A stretch of DNA of 38,419 nucleotides from a virus, in IMG/VR virus record IMGVR_UViG_3300032516_000074, positions 1-38,419 of that record; one strand, 5' to 3'. The position numbers and the translations under genes are program-made. The notes under the pieces are model-generated. The model was not told the origin of the DNA. It saw only the letters and a list, made by a program, of their open reading frames with translations, and did not search any database. Positions 2,581 to 35,800 of the stretch are shown piece after piece. Each line of letters begins with the position of its first letter. Within the stretch, counting starts at the first letter, position 1.

Positions 2581-3546
2581 TTATCCTGAGTTGTTACAGT
2601 CAATCACAGTTCCACCAGTTGTTGATCCCAAGAAATTCTGCACACCATGGTCTCCTGTAGAGTTTCCAATAGTAGTGTTGAATGTCCCAGATAACAAATT
2701 CCTTGCCCAGATTGCGTGTCCAGCTGTCAAGTTTCCTGCAGTTTTTATTCCGCAAGTTGCACTTCCTGCCAGTCCGTATATATCGTTATCAGTGATTTCG
2801 GTGTATGATCTTCCTGCTCCAGTCTTGATCACATTGAATCCAATTCCTTCTGCGGGAACTTTTATTGTGTTGAACTTGTGTGTTTCCCTTGTTCCATTGC
2901 ACAATATTGCTGCTGTGACAAATCCGTCGAAGTGATTGTTCTCTGTTATCAAATTCACTGTATCTGCATATGTTCCACTCACATCATGCGGTCTTATCGC
3001 ATATGTTGCAGTTGCGTATGCATCAAAGTTACAATCGTGGATGTAAGTGTCATAGACACCTGCTCCAAGTGCTGCAATCGCATCTGTTCCAATTTGAATG
3101 CATGCTGCTGCAGTCCTCATAGATAATGCAAGGTATGCAATCTCTACACGATCTGCTGCGATTATGAACATTGGTGTCGCTCCGACTGCTTTCTTCACTG
3201 ATGAGTTCTGGTCTCCTGGATGCCTGTTGGATCCGAATATCTTCAACCCTGTTTGGGTGATAGTTATTCCGGCAGTCGCAATTGTCTGAATGGTGTTTTC
3301 TGCAATGAGAATAACATCATAGTTTCCTGCAACTGCTGTAGCTTCCAAAAGTGTCAAGAATGCCTCATCGGGACTTGATCCGTCTCCTGATGCAGCTGGT
3401 CCGGTTTTACCCGAATCAACATACCAGATTTGGGTATCTTTTTTCATTGATCCCAATGCTCCTTCAACTCCCTGGGCGAATTGTGTTCTTCCAGTAAATT
3501 TCAGGTTCCCAGTTACTTCTTCGCTTATATTTCCAAATCTTCCCAT
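2581..3546 (-). CDS. Right-handed beta-helix virion protein (head fibre or decoration)
   Basis: The product is 321 residues. The first 40 residues form a short capsid-docking-like tail (GNLKFTGRTQFAQGVEGALG). A segment beginning WYVDSGKTGP and continuing SGDGSSPDEAF is typical at the start of viral pectate-lyase-like beta-helix proteins. From about 75 to 320 there are repeated short strands with small and Asn residues (for example TENNHFDGF, ITDNDIYGL), as in parallel beta-helices. No lyase active site is obvious. It lies between two small head proteins downstream of the capsid gene, so a capsid-surface role is more likely than a tail-spike role. Confidence 0.65.
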   Translation of the reverse strand: MGRFGNISEEVTGNLKFTGRTQFAQGVEGALGSMKKDTQIWYVDSGKTGPAASGDGSSPDEAFLTLLEATAVAGNYDVILIAENTIQTIATAGITITQTGLKIFGSNRHPGDQNSSVKKAVGATPMFIIAADRVEIAYLALSMRTAAACIQIGTDAIAALGAGVYDTYIHDCNFDAYATATYAIRPHDVSGTYADTVNLITENNHFDGFVTAAILCNGTRETHKFNTIKVPAEGIGFNVIKTGAGRSYTEITDNDIYGLAGSATCGIKTAGNLTAGHAIWARNLLSGTFNTTIGNSTGDHGVQNFLGSTTGGTVIDCNNSG

Positions 3547-3562
3547 GTTATGTTAAGGCAGA

Positions 3563-3856
3563 TTAGTAAGCGTACAAGATTATTGTCTTCTTTCCTGTAT
3601 CAGAACCACCAAGTGTCACAACCAAGACTCCGCTTGTTACAACTGTTGTTGCTGCGGTTAGTACTACGACTGAACCATCTGTAGTCTCATCAAAGACGTG
3701 AATTCCATGAATGTTTTTGCATCCATAATCCCCCAAGTCAATTTGGACTGTATCTGTTCCACCGATTACTGTGTCTGGGAATGTAACTTGCAGAATTTTC
3801 ACACCACTGTTTGGCGAAATCTCTGTTACTGTTCCTATTTCTCCTAATGCTGTCAT
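3563..3856 (-). CDS. Small beta-rich head protein, probable decoration protein
   Basis: The product is 97 residues, beta-rich with few charges, containing QIDLGDYGCKNIHGIHVF and a final TIILYAY. It follows the major capsid gene and has one of the strongest ribosome sites in the window (AGGAGGT about 9 bases before ATG 3856), which suggests high expression. An oligo-T terminator upstream separates it from the capsid gene. I do not recognise the family by name. A capsid-stabilising or decoration role is inferred from size, position and translation signal. Confidence 0.55.
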   Translation of the reverse strand: MTALGEIGTVTEISPNSGVKILQVTFPDTVIGGTDTVQIDLGDYGCKNIHGIHVFDETTDGSVVVLTAATTVVTSGVLVVTLGGSDTGKKTIILYAY

Positions 3857-11895: not shown

Positions 11896-12134
11896 TAGTT
11901 CACCATTGCTATTTTTTTCTTCTTTTTCTTAATTAGCATGACCAACTTTCTGAATTTGTCATCTGGTACCTGATCCACTATCTGGTCGCAGGCCTTTTCC
12001 TTGTCTGAAGATTTTGCTATGATTCCCCCTGCTGCAAGGTACAGCTTCTCCAAGGCCGCATCCAGTTCCATCCTTTGCTCGTGCGTCATTTCAATTGCCA
12101 TCCTTCTGAGTCTTTCCTTAACTTTTGTGCTCAT
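11895..12134 (-). CDS. Small basic helical protein, unknown
   Basis: The product is 79 residues, with two helical stretches (ERLRRMAIEMTHEQRMELDA, then DDKFRKLVMLIKKKKKK) and a Lys-rich end. It overlaps the C5 methyltransferase stop by 4 bases (ATGA) and abuts the ParB-methyltransferase, so all three are probably co-translated. I recognise no domain. Its charge suggests a nucleic-acid or partner-binding role, but that is inference. Confidence 0.6.
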   Translation of the reverse strand: MSTKVKERLRRMAIEMTHEQRMELDAALEKLYLAAGGIIAKSSDKEKACDQIVDQVPDDKFRKLVMLIKKKKKKIAMVN

Positions 12135-13726
12135 AATATTTTTTCTATAATTGCTTTAATAACATTGACTGTTACTGCATTGCCCATCATCTTGTATCTA
12201 TGTGTGTCGCTGAAATACGAAATATTCTCCATTCTTAAATCCAATAATCCCTCGTTTGTATAATTCTGCTCCAACTTTTTGTAGACTATAATGGCTTTGG
12301 TTATGGGATTTCCTGTCTTTACTGAGATGAAGGTTTGTGATTTTATTATTTCTTTTATCCAAGTCAATATGATGAATAAGTTCTCCCTTGATAAGTTTTC
12401 TTCCAAGGTGATCTTCAAAAATTCTGAGATGTTCCTCTTTTCCATTAATTCTAAGATAAGGTTCTTTTTTGTTATTGCTTCTATCTTTGAGATATTGTTC
12501 GGATTGTAAAGGATTGCCATACCTTTTCCATGATTGGTAATGTCGCATACACCATCCTCTACAGAAACTATCTCTATCACACCCTGTGCATTTACATTTT
12601 CCTGAATTGATTCTATCTCTTCCATAGGTAATGTTTGGATCTCCCCACTTTTTCCATCGTTTATAATGTTTGAGACATAGTTTCTCTTTTCGGATAACAA
12701 TTGATTTTCCGCATTCTTTGATTTTACATCTTTCCATATCTTGCTTATTAATTTGACAGAGTTCTTAAAACTTGTGTTTTCTGTCCAATTGTCAGGGAAG
12801 GATTGAAGTCTCTCACATTCCTTGGGTGTAAATCTTCGGAGTGATCCATCAAAAAGGTAGTTGTCCTTTTCAACTGAGGTCAGGGTGTTTGTTACATCCA
12901 TCCTTGGTTCGAATTGTTGGATGTGCTCTTCATTCTTTCCATGGCGATCTCTTTGCCTCATTGCAACCACCATTGGAACATTGTTTCCTCCGGTTCCCAT
13001 CTTTGTACTTAAGGTTGGGCTTATCAGACTTTCTCTGAATCCTTTTGTTCTTGAGTCAAATCCTTTTCTATCATACACAACTTGTCCTCTTGATTTTTTG
13101 ATGTCTCCAAGAGTACAATGCCCTGGATATCTGGCTGTGAGGCAGTTTGCAATTTGCTCTTCATGTATTCCTTGAATCTGTTCTGCATAATTTCTGAAAG
13201 GTAATATTTCGGATCTACTTGTTCCTCTAATATTTCCGATAAGGAATACCCTTTCTCTGTTCTGGGGCACTCCAAAAAACTTGCTGTTAAGAACCATCCA
13301 CTGAATGTTATACCCCAATTCATTAAGCGTTTGAATGATGATGGAAAAAGTACGCCCTTTGTCGTGATTGAGTAAGCCCTTGACGTTTTCAAGCAGTATA
13401 ATTTGAGGTCTTTTAACTTCAACAATTCTTGCAACTTCAAAAAACATTGTGCCCCGTGTATCCTCAAATCCTTTTCTTCTTCCAGCGATTGAGAATGCTT
13501 GACAAGGAAATCCTCCACAGAGCATATTAAATTCTGGTAGTTCTCTTGGATTAATCTCTCTTGCGTCTCCATAGTTTTTGATGCCTGGCCATTTTGCGCA
13601 GAGGAGTTCAGAGGCATATTTGTCGATTTCACTGAATCCAATGCACTCTGCGCGATTTCCAATTCCGAGTTCGAATCCTCCGACTCCGGAGAACATACTG
13701 AAGTATCTGATTTTTCCATCTTTCAT
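12131..13726 (-). CDS. DNA (cytosine-5) methyltransferase carrying a large in-frame insertion
   Basis: The product is 531 residues from ATG 13726, which overlaps the upstream stop (ATGA) and has GAGGAG just before it. Motif I is FSGVGGFELG (12-21). Motif IV is GGFPCQ (71-76) with catalytic C75. Motif VI is ENV (113-115) and motif VIII is QNRER (155-159). Motif IX is FTPKECERLQSFPDNW (299-314) and motif X is YKMMGNAV near the C-terminus. Motifs IX and X are normally nearly adjacent. Here residues 318-501 (184 codons, about 12224-12775) are an insertion that reads through without a stop. Removing it restores a normal junction, WTEN joined to ISYFSDTHRY. The insertion also encodes an HNH endonuclease in another frame. 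Whether the inserted enzyme is active is unknown. Confidence 0.88.
   Translation of the reverse strand: MKDGKIRYFSMFSGVGGFELGIGNRAECIGFSEIDKYASELLCAKWPGIKNYGDAREINPRELPEFNMLCGGFPCQAFSIAGRRKGFEDTRGTMFFEVARIVEVKRPQIILLENVKGLLNHDKGRTFSIIIQTLNELGYNIQWMVLNSKFFGVPQNRERVFLIGNIRGTSRSEILPFRNYAEQIQGIHEEQIANCLTARYPGHCTLGDIKKSRGQVVYDRKGFDSRTKGFRESLISPTLSTKMGTGGNNVPMVVAMRQRDRHGKNEEHIQQFEPRMDVTNTLTSVEKDNYLFDGSLRRFTPKECERLQSFPDNWTENTSFKNSVKLISKIWKDVKSKNAENQLLSEKRNYVSNIINDGKSGEIQTLPMEEIESIQENVNAQGVIEIVSVEDGVCDITNHGKGMAILYNPNNISKIEAITKKNLILELMEKRNISEFLKITLEENLSRENLFIILTWIKEIIKSQTFISVKTGNPITKAIIVYKKLEQNYTNEGLLDLRMENISYFSDTHRYKMMGNAVTVNVIKAIIEKIL
12198..12737 (-). CDS. HNH homing endonuclease nested out of frame inside the C5 methyltransferase gene
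   Basis: The product is 179 residues. The N-terminal half has two zinc-finger-like repeats of the C-x4-C...C-x2-HY type, each followed by a W-x-x-x-GDP or R-YGNP tail, as in HNH proteins of phages. Residues about 95-150 form the HNH core: EPYLRINGKEEHLRIF, then GELIHHIDLDKRNNKITNL. Its frame is offset by one from the methyltransferase. Its last residues overlap methyltransferase codons ISYFSDTH and its stop lies inside RYK of motif X. There is no strong ribosome site before ATG 12737. A mobile gene that kept the host frame open is the simplest reading. Confidence 0.8.
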   Translation of the reverse strand: MERCKIKECGKSIVIRKEKLCLKHYKRWKKWGDPNITYGRDRINSGKCKCTGCDRDSFCRGWCMRHYQSWKRYGNPLQSEQYLKDRSNNKKEPYLRINGKEEHLRIFEDHLGRKLIKGELIHHIDLDKRNNKITNLHLSKDRKSHNQSHYSLQKVGAELYKRGIIGFKNGEYFVFQRHT

Positions 13727-13995
13727 TGTCTCCTCAATCCCCTCATAATTGCTGCACCCTGAGCAATGTACCATTGAGTCTGTGCTTTCATTAATTGGAT
13801 TTCCAGTCTTAATTTTTCATTTGTTAGTTTCATGTTCTCGATTGCTTCCTTTGGATTGTGATGATATCCCCATGATGCTATTGCAAGTAAAATTAAAAAG
13901 AATATTCCGAGTATTCCATACCATCTGAATTCATTGCTAATAAGAAAATAAACACATCCAAGCAGTAGTATTGCCTCTCCTATGTTATTTTTCAT
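13723..13995 (-). CDS. Small membrane protein with cytoplasmic coiled tail
   Basis: The product is 90 residues from ATG 13995, two bases after the upstream stop. Two hydrophobic helices lie at about 6-20 (GEAILLLGCVYFLI) and 27-45 (YGILGIFFLILLAIASWGY). A helical, charged C-terminal region follows (ENMKLTNEKLRLEIQLMKAQ). It is the only membrane protein in this DNA-modification operon and overlaps the C5 methyltransferase start. The family is not recognised; superinfection exclusion or membrane anchoring is possible. Confidence 0.6.
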   Translation of the reverse strand: MKNNIGEAILLLGCVYFLISNEFRWYGILGIFFLILLAIASWGYHHNPKEAIENMKLTNEKLRLEIQLMKAQTQWYIAQGAAIMRGLRRQ

Positions 13996-15446: not shown

Positions 15447-15477
15447 ATAATTATATGAATAGAATTATATATTTAAA
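15444..15477 (-). promoter_or_regulatory. Leaderless promoter with start-codon palindrome
   Basis: The minus strand reads TTTAAATATATAATT, centred about 25 bases before ATG 15446. The 14-base perfect palindrome CATATAATTATATG (15444-15457) covers the start codon and the predicted transcription start. No Shine-Dalgarno is present. Confidence 0.55.
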
Positions 15478-15995
15478 CCTTTCCACCTATCTCGAATTTG
15501 CCTTTTGATTGAATTCGTAAGTCCGAATTGTCTTATCTTCGCGTGAAATTTCATGTGCTCTGAATGGCTGGGAAAAACCATAAGGTTCTCTATCCTGTTA
15601 TCAGATTTAATCTCGTTTATATGATGCACTTGCTCTTTTCTATCCAAGTATCTTCCTATATACGCTTCAACAATTAATCTATGTTCTGGTAAATAATTGT
15701 CTTGGTTAGCACTGGGATGTTTTGGACAATAAGACAAAACATATCCTTGGACGGTTTTATACTTTCCACCTTTCCAAAAATTATTTTTTTCCCCTCTCAG
15801 ATTCTGCGACATCCACTCACTCCTGCATTTTCCTTTACAAACAAATGTTTTCGTTTTTTCAATTCTATAATGATAAACTTCGCTCTCTTTTCCGCACACT
15901 ACACATTTCACCTTAATCTTTCCATATTTTGTATTCGCAAATCCGATTTTCTTTTTTGTATCCTCAGAATGAATAAAACCACTTTTTCTTGACAT
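15465..15995 (-). CDS. HNH endonuclease, NUMOD-containing
   Basis: The product is 176 residues. The N-terminus (FIHSEDTKKKIGFANTKYG) resembles a NUMOD3 DNA-binding helix. Residues 29-60 have CVVCGKESEV and CKGKCRSEW zinc motifs. Residues about 103-155 are the HNH core: EHRLIVEAYIGRYLDRKEQ, then VHHINEIKSDNRIENL. It is a free-standing homing-type endonuclease. A TATA-like box (16031-16041) gives it a separate promoter, typical of a mobile gene. Its last bases overlap the promoter of the next gene. Confidence 0.82.
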   Translation of the reverse strand: MSRKSGFIHSEDTKKKIGFANTKYGKIKVKCVVCGKESEVYHYRIEKTKTFVCKGKCRSEWMSQNLRGEKNNFWKGGKYKTVQGYVLSYCPKHPSANQDNYLPEHRLIVEAYIGRYLDRKEQVHHINEIKSDNRIENLMVFPSHSEHMKFHAKIRQFGLTNSIKRQIRDRWKGLNI

Positions 15996-21415: not shown

Positions 21416-21741
21416 TTCAGTTTCTCCCCCGCCATTCTTTCTGTTGTGGGTCCAAGCCAATCAACATCTAAATCTGTTATGGTTTTCCTATCTGTTAGTT
21501 TTCCCCCTGCCAGTTTTCTAACTTTGGAAATTAGATTATTTTTAACTCCTCTTGAAATTAAAGAGGAAATATCTATTTGAACCTTTAAAAGACGCACAAA
21601 TTCTTTTACATCTTCTTCTGCAAAATTCTTATATCTGTAATACTTCCCTACATTTCTTTGATAAATTTGATTTATTCTAATTCTATCACTCAATACAAAC
21701 TCATCAGACAAACAAAAATCCCCCGAATTACTTTTCTCCAT
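21412..21741 (-). CDS. Cassette protein with a fossil gene boundary inside it
   Basis: The product is 109 residues, ending MAGEKLK. Inside, residues about 77-83 read KLAGGKL, encoded by a copy of the boundary element that elsewhere ends genes. The following residues (DRKTITDL) resemble the MKKTTINDL start of the next gene. The gene thus looks like two cassette genes fused in frame. It overlaps the HNH gene upstream by 14 bases. The N-terminal part is helical with no known domain. Confidence 0.5.
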   Translation of the reverse strand: MEKSNSGDFCLSDEFVLSDRIRINQIYQRNVGKYYRYKNFAEEDVKEFVRLLKVQIDISSLISRGVKNNLISKVRKLAGGKLTDRKTITDLDVDWLGPTTERMAGEKLK

Positions 21742-22312
21742 TGTGTAACCTCATATGACATTTATGACAAAGAGAAACAAACTCTAATGGTTTATTGTAG
21801 TCTGGGTGGTGTAAATCAACATTTTCAGAACTACCACATTGAGAACAATTTTCTATAATAATCTTATTTGATTTAATATAATTCCATAATAAATTCCTTG
21901 CTCTTGCTTTCAGAGGGTCTTTAGTATAAGTCTTAGCATATTCTTTCCTTTCTGCTCTTTCACATTCAAGGCAATAATTAGTTGTCTTCTTATCTTCTCT
22001 ATTTCTAAAATCATTTATAGATTTAAAATGATAACAACTTTTACAAAGTCTTTTGTCTTCAAGAATTTGAGTGTCAGGACTACCACCCCGTTTATTGCTC
22101 TTGGGCTTTAAGGCGTAACCAGTCACTCTGTTAAAAGTGCTATCTGCCTTTCGGCTTCTCGCCTGTTCGTCCTGACTTTGAGCGCCAGCGTCAGATAAAC
22201 TTTTCAGTGTGTGACCGTCTGTTTTATCCAAAGGCTGACTATTAGGTTTGAATTTCTTCCATTCTCCTGAAACTTTGATAGGATGTTTTGGAGAAGTATT
22301 ATCTTTTCCCAT
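21728..22312 (-). CDS. HNH endonuclease with zinc fingers
   Basis: The product is 194 residues from ATG 22312, with GGAG about 8 bases upstream. The first 85 residues are polar, probably disordered, and look unlike the rest. A zinc motif CKSCYHFKSINDF ... YCLECE follows, then the HNH core near the C-terminus: NCSQCGSSENVDLHHPDYNK, then LCHKCHMRLHNG. The DNA encoding the polar part is less AT-rich than its surroundings, which may mean a composite gene. It overlaps the next cassette gene by 14 bases. Confidence 0.75.
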   Translation of the reverse strand: MGKDNTSPKHPIKVSGEWKKFKPNSQPLDKTDGHTLKSLSDAGAQSQDEQARSRKADSTFNRVTGYALKPKSNKRGGSPDTQILEDKRLCKSCYHFKSINDFRNREDKKTTNYCLECERAERKEYAKTYTKDPLKARARNLLWNYIKSNKIIIENCSQCGSSENVDLHHPDYNKPLEFVSLCHKCHMRLHNGEK

Positions 22313-22313
22313 A

Positions 22314-22610
22314 TCAATCGCTCCTTCCACAAGTTGGACATTTAGTTTCTTCTTCAGCATCAATTTCCTCACACTTTTCACAAAAACAATTATTTGCTCC
22401 ACATACCTCTGTTCTTCTTGGCTGATAAAAATCTATTATTTCTCCACAACCAACCTTTTTATCTTTTATCTTATTTTCAATTTCCTTACACTTTTTCTTA
22501 TACTCTTTCCAAGCTGTGTCTTTTATTTTCTGATACTCGTTCAAAGCTGTGTCTCCTATTTTATCATACTCTTCATAAGCTTCAACTTTTCTTTCTTGTT
22601 TAGTTTTCAT
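22314..22610 (-). CDS. Hendecad-repeat zinc protein, short paralogue
   Basis: The product is 98 residues from ATG 22610, which overlaps the stop of the longer paralogue (ATGA). It starts MKTKQERK, has two full 11-residue repeats (EEYDKIGDTAL, NEYQKIKDTAW) and a degenerate third. It then has a Cys-rich part with GANNCFCEKC and a final TKCPTCGRSD. The neighbour starts with the same words and ends EIDAEEETACPICGK, so they are a tandem duplication that differs in repeat number. The repeats should form a right-handed coiled coil. The function is unknown. Confidence 0.65.
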   Translation of the reverse strand: MKTKQERKVEAYEEYDKIGDTALNEYQKIKDTAWKEYKKKCKEIENKIKDKKVGCGEIIDFYQPRRTEVCGANNCFCEKCEEIDAEEETKCPTCGRSD

Positions 22611-26786: not shown

Positions 26787-29700
26787 TTACCTCAAGCAAT
26801 CTATGCAATAAGATTCTATGTCCACTCTTGGTTGCAGGATCCTTTGGTTCGTTGCGTTGCAGTTGTTTAAGTCAGCCCATATAAAGATGCTTTTATTATG
26901 CAGATATCCTATATTGCTTTCTATCTGCTGATTTGTTGTGTTTATAATATTTCCAGTCAGTGGCTTCGTGCCATTGCCTGCCCATGTCAGATTCAGGCAT
27001 GCAAATGTTTCATTTATTCTTATTGATAAATTGGCATTCTTTGCATAATTTGTCATTGTGATATTAATTAAAGGAATTGTTGATGTCTGTCCGAATGCCG
27101 ATACATTCTTTGAGCTGTTTGTCCTTGGCAGGAAGAAAATCAGGTCTGTCCAAGTATAAGGCAATCTCTGAAGGAAACTGGATCTGTAAAAAGTTATATT
27201 ATGTGTCTGGTTTACTGTGTAATTTGTATCATGCGCAGTTACGTTAAGAACCCATCTTCCTCCCAGATAAGCATAAACCATGTTTGATATGTTGATCCGG
27301 GCCTGGCTTGTCGTTGAATTTATTGTTGCTATTGGGATCCTGAATCCTGATTCATTTGCTGTTGAATTTCCCAAAACATTTGACAAATTCCTGCTTACAT
27401 TTATTTCTATCGGGTTCGGATCATAAGTCATGTTAAAATTCTCCACTACAAGCAATCCCAGTGAATCAGAGGCTATCTTCAAAGGAATTGAATATGTATG
27501 CCCATAATTGATTGATGTGTTCTTGTTTGTCGAGATAAATAAATCAGATATATCTATGTTTGAAAGATTGGCTTGCTGCGTGCCATTTGCTTGCCCGAAA
27601 TATCCTGAGTAAGTGTAATCAATTATTCCGTCATCTCCCCAGTCTATTGTGATGTTTGATGTATTTCCTGCCGGCACAGATAAGTTGACTCCCCATAAAT
27701 GTGTAGTTGAGTTGTAGTTATCTGGTGCAGTAATATTTATTGTCATTCCCCATCTCAGATGCTGCCCTGGATTAACAAAAGTATGAGACACTCCGTTTGT
27801 GACGGTTTCCCAATTTGCTCCGTCGTCAGCGCTTGCATAAAAGGTTAATGATTCTCCGGCTACATTTTGCCCGAAGAAGTTTGCAATAACTGATTCTATT
27901 TTTCCCCCGGTATCATAAACCGAGTTAGATACCACTGTTGAATTTGCCCTTGTCGATTTTGTGTGTTTCACTTCTCTTGTTGTTATATTAATTATTATTA
28001 CAGGATCATCTTGTTCTATTATTGCATCTGCATCAAATGCAAATCCTGCCGAATTATTTGTTATCGTGAAGTATGATGCTTCTCCGGAGAACATATAATT
28101 CGTGCTGGCGTTTGAGCTTGGTGGATCCAGCGTTGTTTTATTTTCATATCCCCATAGCCTTCTCTCGGCAGTGGTTCTATTTACTTTTGTAATCATAATT
28201 GTTAAATTTGTACGTGTCTGCTCGTCTACATTTATACTTTCAACAGATGCGTTGGCAAACCATATCTGAGTTCCACCATACTTAAGGTGCCAAGTTGCTT
28301 GTCCATCATCATTAGAATCTTTTTCAACAACCAATGTAGAATTTATGGATAAGTTTACTATATCTGATTCAGGATAACTTAAAGAGTTGTATCTTGATAC
28401 AACTGTTGTTCCAAGTATTCCTGTCCCATCAATGGTGTACACAAAAGTGTTCATTCCTCTTGCTCCTCCAGTGGGTCCGCTTCCACTAACTTCTGCTGTA
28501 CAACTTGTTGGGGGTCCTATAACACATGATGTATTTTTCCAGAGTGTTGTATTAACTCCGCTGCTATCTGTAAGATTGTCATAAAGGTACATTTGTCTTG
28601 AAACATTCTTTGCCATGATAACTCCTGAAAAATCCTGATGTGTAGTGCTATCTGTGCTGATATTTATATAACTATCAAATCCAACTGATCCAATCGTATT
28701 ATTTCCTTCCTTGTATTCAACTCCTGATGGGAATCCGATCAAGTTTAAAAGGAAGCTGTAAACATCCCTTATTTTAAAGATGTCATCCAGGACAAAATAA
28801 ATGGTATAATTATATCCGAATGCATAAGTAAGGTTTTTCTGTGTATTTCCATCCTGATCCGCGTTCAGGTAAATCCTTGAATTATTCAAATATCCATCAT
28901 ACCATCTGTCAATTAATGGGATATACTGCGTGCTGTTTGATAAATTTGGTGTTGAATTTGCATAGAATATTGTTGTATCATATGGGTTGCTTACTCCGGT
29001 GATGTTGAATTTTAATGATTGTGGTTCATCATATTTGTGCGATGCAATTGTTATACTGTTGGAACTTAAATTTGAGAAATTGAATCCCTGGCTTAATGTT
29101 CCATCTGAGAATAATTGCTTTGTGAAATTGGGGGTTATATAAATTGTTTCTCCTCCAGTGCAGAAATAATTTGTGCTGTATTCTGGTCCGTCTATATCAA
29201 AGCATATTGTAACATTCCCTGTCCCATTTGCCTTTATGGAAATATTCCCCCTTTCTGCCGTCACGTTTCCAAGGGTATTATTAAAATAAACACTAATGCT
29301 TGTTATTAAACTAATTTCCCTTGTCTCTGTTGAGTTTGAATTGTTTACCATATCGAATGTGGTTGCATTGTAATAATAAATGTCGTTTGCTAATCCCGTA
29401 ACATTGATTTGTCTCGTTGAATTCGTAAAAGTTATAGAGGTAATTGATGTCCCATTTAAGTGATAAAGATTGAATGTGAGGTTCTGGAAATTTGTTTCTG
29501 TTACACTTACATTCATAAATATCCAATTTCTATTAAAAATCGTTCCATTTGCTGCCGTTGGGTTTACAAAAGATATTAAATTTGGTGGGGTATACCATAT
29601 TGTTCTATTATTCACTGCAAATCCGCAAGCCCCATCTGTGTCACATGCTTGAACATTCCATGTTGTGTTCGTTGTTGGAATTATCTTTGAGAAGTTCTGA

Positions 29701-31328
29701 ACGGAGAATGTCTGTGGTGTTGTGGCATTAACTGTTATGCTTAAAATCTCTCTTATTACATTTTCTGTTGCCCCAAAATCATCACAATGAACTCCATTTG
29801 TAAAATTCACATAAGTATCATTATAAGGATAAGTAGGTGATGCTTTCCATGAGGTATGTGTCAATCCTCCTGCACAAAGCCAATAAGTTTGTCCTGCAAC
29901 CAATGGAATATTAAAAGAGGCATTTCCACTCGTCAATGTTGCATTTGCAATTGATGTTCCGTTTGAATAGTATAAATCCATTGTTGCAGCAGTGGTGAGA
30001 GCAAACTTTGTTGCTTTTACTAATGTAACATTTTGATTGACAACAAACTTGAACCCTCTTCCAAGTGGTTGAGTTTCAGTTACATCATTTGTTGTTGCTT
30101 GATTATGAGATTGAATTACAGAAGATATACCTTCTCCAATAGTTTTTGTTTCATTTAAGTGCCATGTTCCTGTTGAATTTGTCCATAAGGACATATTTAC
30201 CAATCCCGCACCTCCTGTTATGTTGGCTGTGGCATTATAAAAAACAGTGTTAATTGTTGTAATATTCTTATCGGCAGGAGAAATTAAAATTACTTCTGCC
30301 TGACTACCTGTTGAGATATTACCCCAAGTTGCCCATTCTGTGATTTTAAAATCATAAAAGGTAGGAATCCATTCTATATAATCTCCTTTTTCAACATTGG
30401 TGAAAATTCCCATGTTTTTATTTCCTGAATTAAAAAATGATTTATTAAAATCTTTCCATATAACAACTTTTTCAATATGGTTTCCAGTTATTTCCTGGAC
30501 ACATTCCTGAATTTCTGTTCCATTAACAAGGATTGATTTATCACAAAAGATTTCATAATCATAAATTAATTTATCTTCATAATCCATATACTTAAAATAT
30601 AAAATTCTGTTTATTATTCTACTATTATTATTTAGATCATATAATTCTATATTTGTCATAAAATTATCCAAATTTACAGAACTATTTACTTCAAATTCAG
30701 CGACTTTTTGATAACCAATATTAACTTTTAAATGAGTATCTGAAATAAGTTTCCCAGAGAAAAGAATGGTATTAAAATTATTATCTTTTATAAAAAATTC
30801 CCTATTTTTTTCTGAATATTCTTTATATTGATTGTCTATTCCATAAAAAATTGGGTCAAGATTAGCAAATCCCCACTTAATACTTTCATTTGGATTATTC
30901 TTTAAAACTTCAAACTTCAGCTGGTATTCTTTGTTATTTCTGAATGCAAATGAATAAACTGTTTTTCCTGAATTATCTGGAGCTCCGCACCAGGTTCCTT
31001 TGCAATTTGTTGTAAGATTTATTTCTCTCCATCCAGTGCCCCAGCTACGGTATAATTTTGTTGATTTGACCGAACCATTCATATAAAATCCGCCTGACCA
31101 ATTCTCGTTTGGATAGATGAATATGTCCTCTTTGGCAGTCATATTAATGTATGCTATGCAAGGATCCTGAACTGTTCCTGAGCAGATCTGATCTCCGGAG
31201 AATCCAGTTATGGTTATCGCACCCAAAGATGAAAGATACCAAAATAAAAGAATTGCCAAAGGTACGCCAGTCACGCCTGCTCCGATCGCCCATTTCTTGA
31301 CTGCTGAACTATAAACTCTTTTTGCCAT
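26787..31328 (-). CDS. Giant sequon-rich membrane-anchored surface/adhesion protein
   Basis: The product is 1513 residues, the largest in the window. An N-terminal hydrophobic helix lies at about 12-37 (WAIGAGVTGVPLAILLFWYL). The next 300 residues contain a Cys pair (ICSGTVQDPC) and a module with YRSWGTGWREINLTTNCKGT, a pattern seen in uncultivated archaeal surface proteins. Several Ig-like or fibronectin-like repeats follow with motifs such as TTWNVQACDTDGACGFAVNN. N-x-S/T sequons are very frequent throughout, suggesting N-glycosylation or mimicry of the host surface. It lies between the distal tail and hub genes, the usual place of receptor-binding proteins. The membrane helix is unusual for a tail fibre, so it might sit on the infected cell. 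Confidence 0.7.
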   Translation of the reverse strand: MAKRVYSSAVKKWAIGAGVTGVPLAILLFWYLSSLGAITITGFSGDQICSGTVQDPCIAYINMTAKEDIFIYPNENWSGGFYMNGSVKSTKLYRSWGTGWREINLTTNCKGTWCGAPDNSGKTVYSFAFRNNKEYQLKFEVLKNNPNESIKWGFANLDPIFYGIDNQYKEYSEKNREFFIKDNNFNTILFSGKLISDTHLKVNIGYQKVAEFEVNSSVNLDNFMTNIELYDLNNNSRIINRILYFKYMDYEDKLIYDYEIFCDKSILVNGTEIQECVQEITGNHIEKVVIWKDFNKSFFNSGNKNMGIFTNVEKGDYIEWIPTFYDFKITEWATWGNISTGSQAEVILISPADKNITTINTVFYNATANITGGAGLVNMSLWTNSTGTWHLNETKTIGEGISSVIQSHNQATTNDVTETQPLGRGFKFVVNQNVTLVKATKFALTTAATMDLYYSNGTSIANATLTSGNASFNIPLVAGQTYWLCAGGLTHTSWKASPTYPYNDTYVNFTNGVHCDDFGATENVIREILSITVNATTPQTFSVQNFSKIIPTTNTTWNVQACDTDGACGFAVNNRTIWYTPPNLISFVNPTAANGTIFNRNWIFMNVSVTETNFQNLTFNLYHLNGTSITSITFTNSTRQINVTGLANDIYYYNATTFDMVNNSNSTETREISLITSISVYFNNTLGNVTAERGNISIKANGTGNVTICFDIDGPEYSTNYFCTGGETIYITPNFTKQLFSDGTLSQGFNFSNLSSNSITIASHKYDEPQSLKFNITGVSNPYDTTIFYANSTPNLSNSTQYIPLIDRWYDGYLNNSRIYLNADQDGNTQKNLTYAFGYNYTIYFVLDDIFKIRDVYSFLLNLIGFPSGVEYKEGNNTIGSVGFDSYINISTDSTTHQDFSGVIMAKNVSRQMYLYDNLTDSSGVNTTLWKNTSCVIGPPTSCTAEVSGSGPTGGARGMNTFVYTIDGTGILGTTVVSRYNSLSYPESDIVNLSINSTLVVEKDSNDDGQATWHLKYGGTQIWFANASVESINVDEQTRTNLTIMITKVNRTTAERRLWGYENKTTLDPPSSNASTNYMFSGEASYFTITNNSAGFAFDADAIIEQDDPVIIINITTREVKHTKSTRANSTVVSNSVYDTGGKIESVIANFFGQNVAGESLTFYASADDGANWETVTNGVSHTFVNPGQHLRWGMTINITAPDNYNSTTHLWGVNLSVPAGNTSNITIDWGDDGIIDYTYSGYFGQANGTQQANLSNIDISDLFISTNKNTSINYGHTYSIPLKIASDSLGLLVVENFNMTYDPNPIEINVSRNLSNVLGNSTANESGFRIPIATINSTTSQARINISNMVYAYLGGRWVLNVTAHDTNYTVNQTHNITFYRSSFLQRLPYTWTDLIFFLPRTNSSKNVSAFGQTSTIPLINITMTNYAKNANLSIRINETFACLNLTWAGNGTKPLTGNIINTTNQQIESNIGYLHNKSIFIWADLNNCNATNQRILQPRVDIESYCIDCLR

Positions 31329-34518: not shown

Positions 34519-35175
34519 TTAACTTTCCGTATTGAACATGCTCATAAAATCCTGATTTCTTTGCATGATTTCATCTCTCTTTTCAGGATCACTTATCATG
34601 GGCCCCGTCAATGTTGGTTTAATGAATTTGAGATAATAAAAACTTTTCGCATTTGAAATGAATTTGTTTCTTACTGAATAAATGTAAGAATCAATGTCAT
34701 CTGAATTGTCATCATAAATAACAACTGTGAAATTAATGTCAGAAATAAACTGGCTTCCTCCAATCCCGAATGCATCCGATGGCATGTTCAGTATATCTAC
34801 TGCGATTCTTGGATAACTGCTTATGCTCAGATCATCCCTTGGAAAGTCTGGCCATATTTTGTCCGTTCCGTAATCGTAAGTTATAACAAGTGCCCCTGAT
34901 TGATTTGATGCAAAGGTTACCACACAGTTTGATCCTGTGGCTCCGGTTCCATAGTTGACTGTGTAGTCTGTACCAAATGCCAATGTTGTTGCATCAACCG
35001 TGATGCTTCTTATGTTCTTGACGTTTATCCTGGTGATTGTTGCAGTTCCAGCACCTGCAATTGTTGCTGCATATGTTGTGGTTGTGACTCCTCTTTGTGT
35101 AATTGTTAATATGTCCTGGTTTCTGAGAAATACCACAAGTTCAGATTTAATCTGATTGGGGTTAATTACGGTCAT
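34519..35175 (-). CDS. Tail terminator protein with inserted beta domain
   Basis: The product is 218 residues. The N-terminal 30 and C-terminal 105 residues form a tail-terminator-like fold (SSYPRIAVDIL, then INFTVVIYDDNSDDIDSYIY, later KFISNAKSFYYLKFI). Residues about 40-108 are an insert with TITRINVKNIRSITVDATTL and a final ALVITYDYGTD, resembling a domain in the neck protein at 36328-36921. Terminators cap the tube and join it to the head. It overlaps the HNH gene by 14 bases. Confidence 0.7.
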   Translation of the reverse strand: MTVINPNQIKSELVVFLRNQDILTITQRGVTTTTYAATIAGAGTATITRINVKNIRSITVDATTLAFGTDYTVNYGTGATGSNCVVTFASNQSGALVITYDYGTDKIWPDFPRDDLSISSYPRIAVDILNMPSDAFGIGGSQFISDINFTVVIYDDNSDDIDSYIYSVRNKFISNAKSFYYLKFIKPTLTGPMISDPEKRDEIMQRNQDFMSMFNTES

Positions 35176-35800
35176 ATTTTATCTCCAATTTTATCTCTTG
35201 ATTTTCTGAATAGTTATATCCATATTTTTCTGAAAGTAAAGACTGGAAAAACTTAATCCAATGTTTTCTATTAAAATTAACTTCCCCATTGCATTTATTA
35301 CAAATAGTACAACAATTCTGAGGGATAGTTAATTGCTTGTCATAATTTATATGGTGTATTGTCAATGCTTTTCTCTCCATTTCCTGGTGTTTTCCGCATT
35401 TCAAACAGATATAATTATCTCTTTTCCTGATTGTCTTTTTAAATTTATTATTAAACTCTTTTGTATATGGTTCAAAACTCTTTCCCCCTTGCCAATTAGG
35501 ATTTTTATCTCCAGAAAATAATTCCGACCTATTTTTTAAATATTCTTCAGTCCTTTTCTTTCCCAAAAATCCCCTTGGATGAGGATTATTTTTATGCCAT
35601 TCTTTCATTAATTCAGATTGTTTTTTCTTAGTTTCTTCAGAATGTTCTTTTCCTTTCCTTGATAAACCTATCTTCAATTTACTCTCTTCAGAACGTCTTT
35701 CTCCTCTACCATTATGCCCTGGTATATATTTGGGGATATACCATTTATACTTTTGAATTAATTCTTTTCCACATCCGCACTTGCAGTATTTTATTGTCAT
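35162..35800 (-). CDS. NUMOD-HNH homing endonuclease in the neck module
   Basis: The product is 212 residues. A Cys-rich N-terminus (CKCGCGKELIQKY) is followed by NUMOD3-like helices at about 33-62 (SEESKLKIGLSRKGKEHSEE). The HNH core is at about 130-185: RDNYICLKCGKHQEMER, then TIHHINYDKQLT and CCTICNKC. It lies between the gp10-like and tail terminator genes and overlaps the latter by 14 bases. It has its own TATA-like box and a GAGG ribosome site, as mobile genes usually do. Confidence 0.82.
   Translation of the reverse strand: MTIKYCKCGCGKELIQKYKWYIPKYIPGHNGRGERRSEESKLKIGLSRKGKEHSEETKKKQSELMKEWHKNNPHPRGFLGKKRTEEYLKNRSELFSGDKNPNWQGGKSFEPYTKEFNNKFKKTIRKRDNYICLKCGKHQEMERKALTIHHINYDKQLTIPQNCCTICNKCNGEVNFNRKHWIKFFQSLLSEKYGYNYSENQEIKLEIKYDRN

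Follow-up and report, generated by a model that had tools for sequence, protein, structure and literature searches.

The methyltransferase gene and its insert

The window, which is the whole stretch of DNA analysed here, is a virus record of 38,419 bases. Its minus strand encodes a C5-cytosine DNA methyltransferase (MTase), and an HNH endonuclease gene is nested within the MTase gene in another frame. The features of the locus are listed below, with the evidence for each in brackets.

12131..13774, minus strand: C5-cytosine DNA MTase, 547 aa, the host gene, open across the insert (ORF, PF00145 and Foldseek)
12779..12838, minus strand: MTase motif IX and 5' host flank, RRFTPKECERLQSFPDNWTE (comparison with homologues)
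12212..12778, minus strand: in-frame insert that extends the native 21-nt gap by about 561 nt, with ends uncertain by about 6 nt (comparison of uninserted homologues)
12198..12737, minus strand: HNH endonuclease ORF nested in the other frame, 179 aa and a stop codon (PF13392, E=1.7e-7; family alignment; AF2)
12291..12374, minus strand: HNH catalytic region, with the family-conserved H122-H123, N131, N135, H145 and H149 (family alignment)
12198..12200, minus strand: stop codon TAG of the HNH, built from host SDTHRY codons (sequence)
12134..12211, minus strand: MTase motif X and 3' host flank, SDTHRYKMMGNAVTVNVI... (PF00145 piece and homologue comparison)

The PF00145 match to the MTase ORF is in two pieces, one covering aa 23-339 and the other the motif X end at 12134-12217. 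Motifs I, IV, VI, VIII, IX and X of a C5 cytosine methyltransferase are all intact, with motif X reading SDTHRYKMMGN, and the solved structure best matched in Foldseek is M.HhaI. The closest uninserted homologues (L058, L059, L060 and L065) are 56-60% identical to the window MTase. The gap from ERLQxFP to SDTQRYKM is 21 nt in these four homologues and 582 nt in the window, counted from the end of ERLQSFP; therefore, the insert is about 561 nt (about 187 codons) long. An earlier reading, made from the sequence alone, had described an HNH gene nested out of frame within an in-frame insertion of a C5 MTase, and the ORFs, PF00145 and PF13392 all agree with that description. The separation of motifs IX and X that it reported also stands, while its count of 184 extra codons is corrected to about 187.

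In the AF2 model of the MTase, the pLDDT is about 88-97 over the motif X helix and the greater part of the catalytic core, and mostly 27-68 over the insert. A confident core with a low-confidence insert in an AlphaFold model fits a loop that is tolerated, which is short of proof of activity, and such a loop could still harm the enzyme.

The HNH ORF is shifted by 2 mod 3 from the MTase frame and accounts for 540 nt of the insert of about 561 nt. Two zinc-finger-like pairs precede the HNH domain, and the domain (PF13392) and conserved H/N/H catalytic residues of an HNH homing endonuclease are both present. The AF2 model of the nuclease has a mean pLDDT of 81. A Foldseek search with this model gave nothing significant, the single-protein match to I-HmuI having an E of about 1. 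The C-terminus of the nuclease does use host codons, as the sequence-only reading held, since its final codons, like its TAG, are made from those of the host SDTHRY. The HNHs of L004, L012, L164, L165 and L166, which belong to the same family (A), also stop at host S-[DN] codons.

Recurrence in other viral methyltransferases

Relatives were collected by alignment queries of viral contigs; single-protein searches gave few. About 30 non-redundant nested HNHs are found. They fall into at least five sequence families, between them use both alternative frames, and all have zero host-frame stops across the HNH. Family A, the relatives of the window HNH (L004, L012, L164, L165, L166 and L211), has the same MTase site and the same frame relation. 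Family B (L056, L079, L149, L151-L155, L157, L159 and L161) is unrelated to family A and occupies the same MTase site. Members of family C (L066, L144, L181, L184 and L186) are nested in the other alternative frame, and those of family D (L007, from an Omegavirus, L167 and L168) lie after motif VIII. In L091, an adenine-type MTase (580-1914) has an HNH nested at 839-1333 in the shift-2 frame, with a permutation P of 1e-4. L219 (3857-5277) has a nuclease-like ORF nested after motif VIII, which is distinct from the other families and matched no Pfam family. The host frame of L219 is open over this ORF, yet the MTase resumes in another frame. This is the sole exception found, and it may reflect a frameshift, decay or a sequence error.

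Searches seeded with the HNH of family B or C used the nuclease sequence alone and were blind to the host frame. They gave 16 loci (about 12 distinct) for family B and 8 loci (about 5 distinct) for family C, and every copy is nested with 0 host-frame stops. Two MTases, L181 (1652-4177, 842 aa) and L167 (2620-5088, 823 aa), have two nested HNHs in a single ORF; these pairs come from families D and C and lie in two different frames, all of which are open. Family C includes a cultured example, gp45 of Staphylococcus phage CUB-EPI_14 (L144 1842-3647; ON325435.2 36629-38434), which is annotated only as a DNA-cytosine methyltransferase, its HNH being unannotated. The C5 MTases of Omegavirus (L007, L009, L010 and L143) have a nested HNH after motif VIII, and their annotations vary: Omegavirus MTases are annotated as two ORFs, and the annotators of Schatzie remark that they were 'unable to determine intron boundaries'. 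Candidates that were set aside are L058, which was flagged wrongly by a loose regex and is uninserted, L116, whose MTase is degenerate, and L248, which has a frameshift without an HNH, probably a sequence error.

Uninserted alleles are common among the relatives. Among the 80 nearest MTases, 64 lack the insert and have an open frame, and 11 could not be scored because their motif X was not recognised. The window element thus has both a patchy distribution and uninserted homologues. HNHs of one family occupy the same site even in MTases with no more than 27-32% identity. A higher identity between HNHs than between their MTases was considered as a sign of horizontal transfer, but this argument is weakened by the correlation of HNH and MTase-core pairwise identities (r 0.63-0.89; 0.89 in family B and 0.65 in family A) and by the small difference in family A. 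Since the identities are correlated, transfer from lineage to lineage is not proven by these distances, and within a family the elements may also have been inherited vertically from old insertions.

The host frame is kept open by selection

In the nested families, divergence is fastest at the third codon positions of the HNH frame; therefore, the HNH is the frame that is constrained at the amino acid level. Amino acid conservation in the host frame is slightly above that of synonymous shuffles (0.325 versus 0.289 in family A). Because host-frame residues barely exceed the shuffles, what is maintained is an open host frame and not its amino acid sequence, and the small conservation beyond stop avoidance may be inertia. 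A comparison of substitution in both frames, which had been put forward with the earlier reading, accordingly finds the HNH frame constrained and the host frame merely open. In L162, around 3498-3653, the family B HNH is truncated at residue 51 but the MTase frame stays open over 854 aa, which is the opposite order of loss.

The MTase frame has no stop across the insert, as had been claimed, and the 547-aa ORF is continuous; the third frame across the window HNH has 21 stops. When the codons of the window HNH were permuted synonymously, the MTase frame was open in 11 of 20000 permutations in one run and in 0.075% in another, and when they were redrawn from the virus's own codon usage it was open in 0 of 20000. 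Three free-standing HNH-type ORFs of the same virus serve as controls:

15465-15995: free-standing HNH-type ORF, control
21728-22402: free-standing HNH-type ORF, control
35162-35800: free-standing HNH-type ORF, control

In these controls, shift 1 is interrupted by 10-14 stops and shift 2 by 16-30. Codon choice accounts for the open frame. Leu, Ile and Val codons that end in A or G feed stops into the host frame of the window. Such codons make up 6 of 30 in the window HNH and 55 of 97 in the three free-standing HNHs (P=7e-4), and 41 of 193 in family A HNHs versus 225 of 431 in the upstream parts of the MTases (P=2e-13). All 26 tabulated non-redundant nested HNHs have zero host-frame stops across the HNH, versus 7-34 in the third frame; their P values are not multiplied, since the members of a family are related. 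Zero host-frame stops are also found in L211, in the second HNH nested in each of L181 and L167, and over the HNH span of L219. The open MTase frame is kept by selection through codon choice and not by chance.

Signals for the separate expression of the nuclease differ among the families. The Shine-Dalgarno-like motif AGGAGG lies 8 nt before the HNH ATG in L144 (CUB-EPI_14) and L186, both of family C, and in L168 of family D. In family B, a TATAAT-like hexamer lies exactly 6 nt before the ATG in 8 of 12 starts, versus 2.7% of all ATGs at those loci, although the eight starts come from related members and are not independent. A TG is often found upstream of this hexamer, as in an extended -10 element. 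Judged by its position, the hexamer probably sits where the promoter of a leaderless transcript would lie, which makes it a candidate signal. Upstream of the window HNH start, no promoter and no Shine-Dalgarno sequence was recognised.

Alternative explanations, probable mechanism and known systems

It is scarcely credible that the host frame is open by chance, through the composition of the HNH or a bias in nucleotides, even though shift 1 has fewer stops than shift 2 in most HNH controls and a few single nested cases have a permutation P near 0.1-0.2. Similar HNHs outside MTases nearly all have many stops; the exception is the GC-rich free-standing L043, with 0 stops in shift 1. The AT-rich free-standing HNHs have 7-51 stops in their alternative frames, the permutation P of the window is 0.0005-0.00075, and in family C, which uses the other frame, it is below 1/4000 in each of the five members. 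A self-splicing intron that escaped detection, either a degenerate group I intron or one of an unknown class, could also carry the HNH and restore the MTase by RNA splicing. Phage group I introns commonly hold HNH homing genes, and the annotators' remark on Schatzie speaks of intron boundaries. Such an intron is nevertheless very unlikely. In its permissive e-value mode, Rfam detected no intron of group I or any other class in the window at E<=5 and nothing at E<=0.5 at five other nested loci, while the T4 td intron, the positive control, was detected at E=2.5e-8; the Rfam gathering threshold misses even T4 introns, so that its lack of hits carries no weight. A ribozyme core has no room, because HNH sequence takes up 540 of the roughly 561 nt, and no core is found around the ORF as it would be for a group I intron-encoded endonuclease. 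The RNA fold is ordinary (z -0.92), and splicing needs no open host frame, yet the frame is open in all 26 tabulated cases. The earlier statement that there is no visible intron is therefore borne out, both by the Rfam screen for group I elements and by the fold. The other checks suggested with that reading which computation can answer, among them the comparison with uninserted relatives, also came out in its favour.

An intein of a non-canonical kind, by which the host-frame insert would be excised at the protein level, would agree with an insertion that is in frame and adjoins conserved motifs. It is highly improbable, since a Pfam search with the full MTase ORF matched no intein family and thus no splicing domain in the host frame, host-frame residues are conserved only slightly above synonymous shuffles in family A, and the insert has no confident predicted fold. 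More weight is due to the possibility that the gene is in pieces, the MTase being inactive or working as two fragments and the element being a plain insertion, but this too is unlikely. Aeh1 NrdA, which is split by mobE and works as two fragments, is a precedent, and the frame break after the HNH of L219, the degenerate MTase of L116 and the two-ORF annotation of Omegavirus MTases point in the same direction. Against it, the catalytic motifs of the window MTase are all intact, stops are avoided across the insert, and almost all relatives have one continuous frame.

The window element is thus probably an intron-free, frame-transparent homing element in a viral C5 MTase, located between motifs IX and X. 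In the mechanism that we propose, the HNH gene would insert between these two motifs, with codons chosen so that the host frame reads through without a stop, which would let the element persist. The MTase product would contain a loop of about 187 residues outside the catalytic core, which the enzyme would tolerate, while the nuclease would be translated in the other frame, beginning at an internal start, so that both proteins would be expressed. The HNH would then cleave alleles that lack the insert, at their conserved motif IX/X DNA, and repair would copy the element in.

Although the sequence-only reading regarded the arrangement as unusual among the homing genes of introns and inteins, its kind has already been described. 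In 2025, Arsenault, Gosselin and Gogarten reported the ShiLan domain, an HNH hidden in the DNA methylases of mycobacteriophages, with Pacc40 as a second case; the authors argued against an intron and an intein and proposed leaderless translation (PMC11855218). An earlier related report (Gosselin 2023, PMC9957025) and a further phage with a hidden HNH arrangement (PMC12613952) are also available. Like ShiLan, the window has a nested out-of-frame HNH, a methylase frame without a stop, no detectable intron or intein signature, a patchy distribution and uninserted homologous alleles. It is not the ShiLan domain proper, since neither the HNH nor the methylase site is the same: Mantra, the ShiLan copy examined and one named in the 2025 paper, is in a DPPY-type (N6/N4) MTase, whereas the insert of the window separates motifs IX and X of a C5 MTase, and the HNHs of the window and Mantra match only over 48 aa of the HNH core. 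The window element is a new member of the ShiLan-type arrangement, with a different HNH, site and MTase class. The MTase class of L091 looks like that of the ShiLan host Mantra.

Other homing endonucleases share some of these features. The free-standing phage enzymes, such as T4 mobD and mobE, have the HNH fold and presumed cleavage of uninserted neighbours in common with the window HNH but, unlike it, lie between genes and keep no second frame open. The HNHs encoded by group I introns, such as I-HmuI and I-TevIII, are likewise homing genes inside a conserved gene, whereas the window has an open host frame and neither an intron core nor space for a ribozyme. Inteins that contain homing endonuclease domains are also in-frame insertions at conserved motifs that are translated with the host; in the window, the nuclease is in another frame and no splicing domain is found.

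We lean towards the view that frame-transparent homing genes make up a broad class of mobile elements, convergent and free of introns, that specialise on MTase genes. Such a class would comprise at least five HNH families in either alternative frame, with codon sets that keep the host open and with their own internal start signals, and several could be stacked in one gene. It would offer a third route besides introns and inteins, in which a selfish nuclease sits inside a gene whose own frame can still be read. Unrelated nuclease families show the arrangement, in both frames, which makes it a natural experiment in dual coding, with many testable copies. The present analysis adds to the earlier reports a quantitative test of frame keeping, a nuclease-seeded collection, the recurrence in several HNH families and both frames across many unrelated viruses, the stacking of two HNHs per gene and candidate internal start signals. 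It also carries a warning for annotation, as the nested nucleases are usually unannotated, or entered as a methyltransferase, a hypothetical intron or a split gene.

Elsewhere in the window, the terminase of the virus is nearest to that of Flavobacterium phage 11b (40%). At 26787-31328, the virus encodes a 1513-aa, repetitive, surface-like protein rich in Asn, Thr and Ser.
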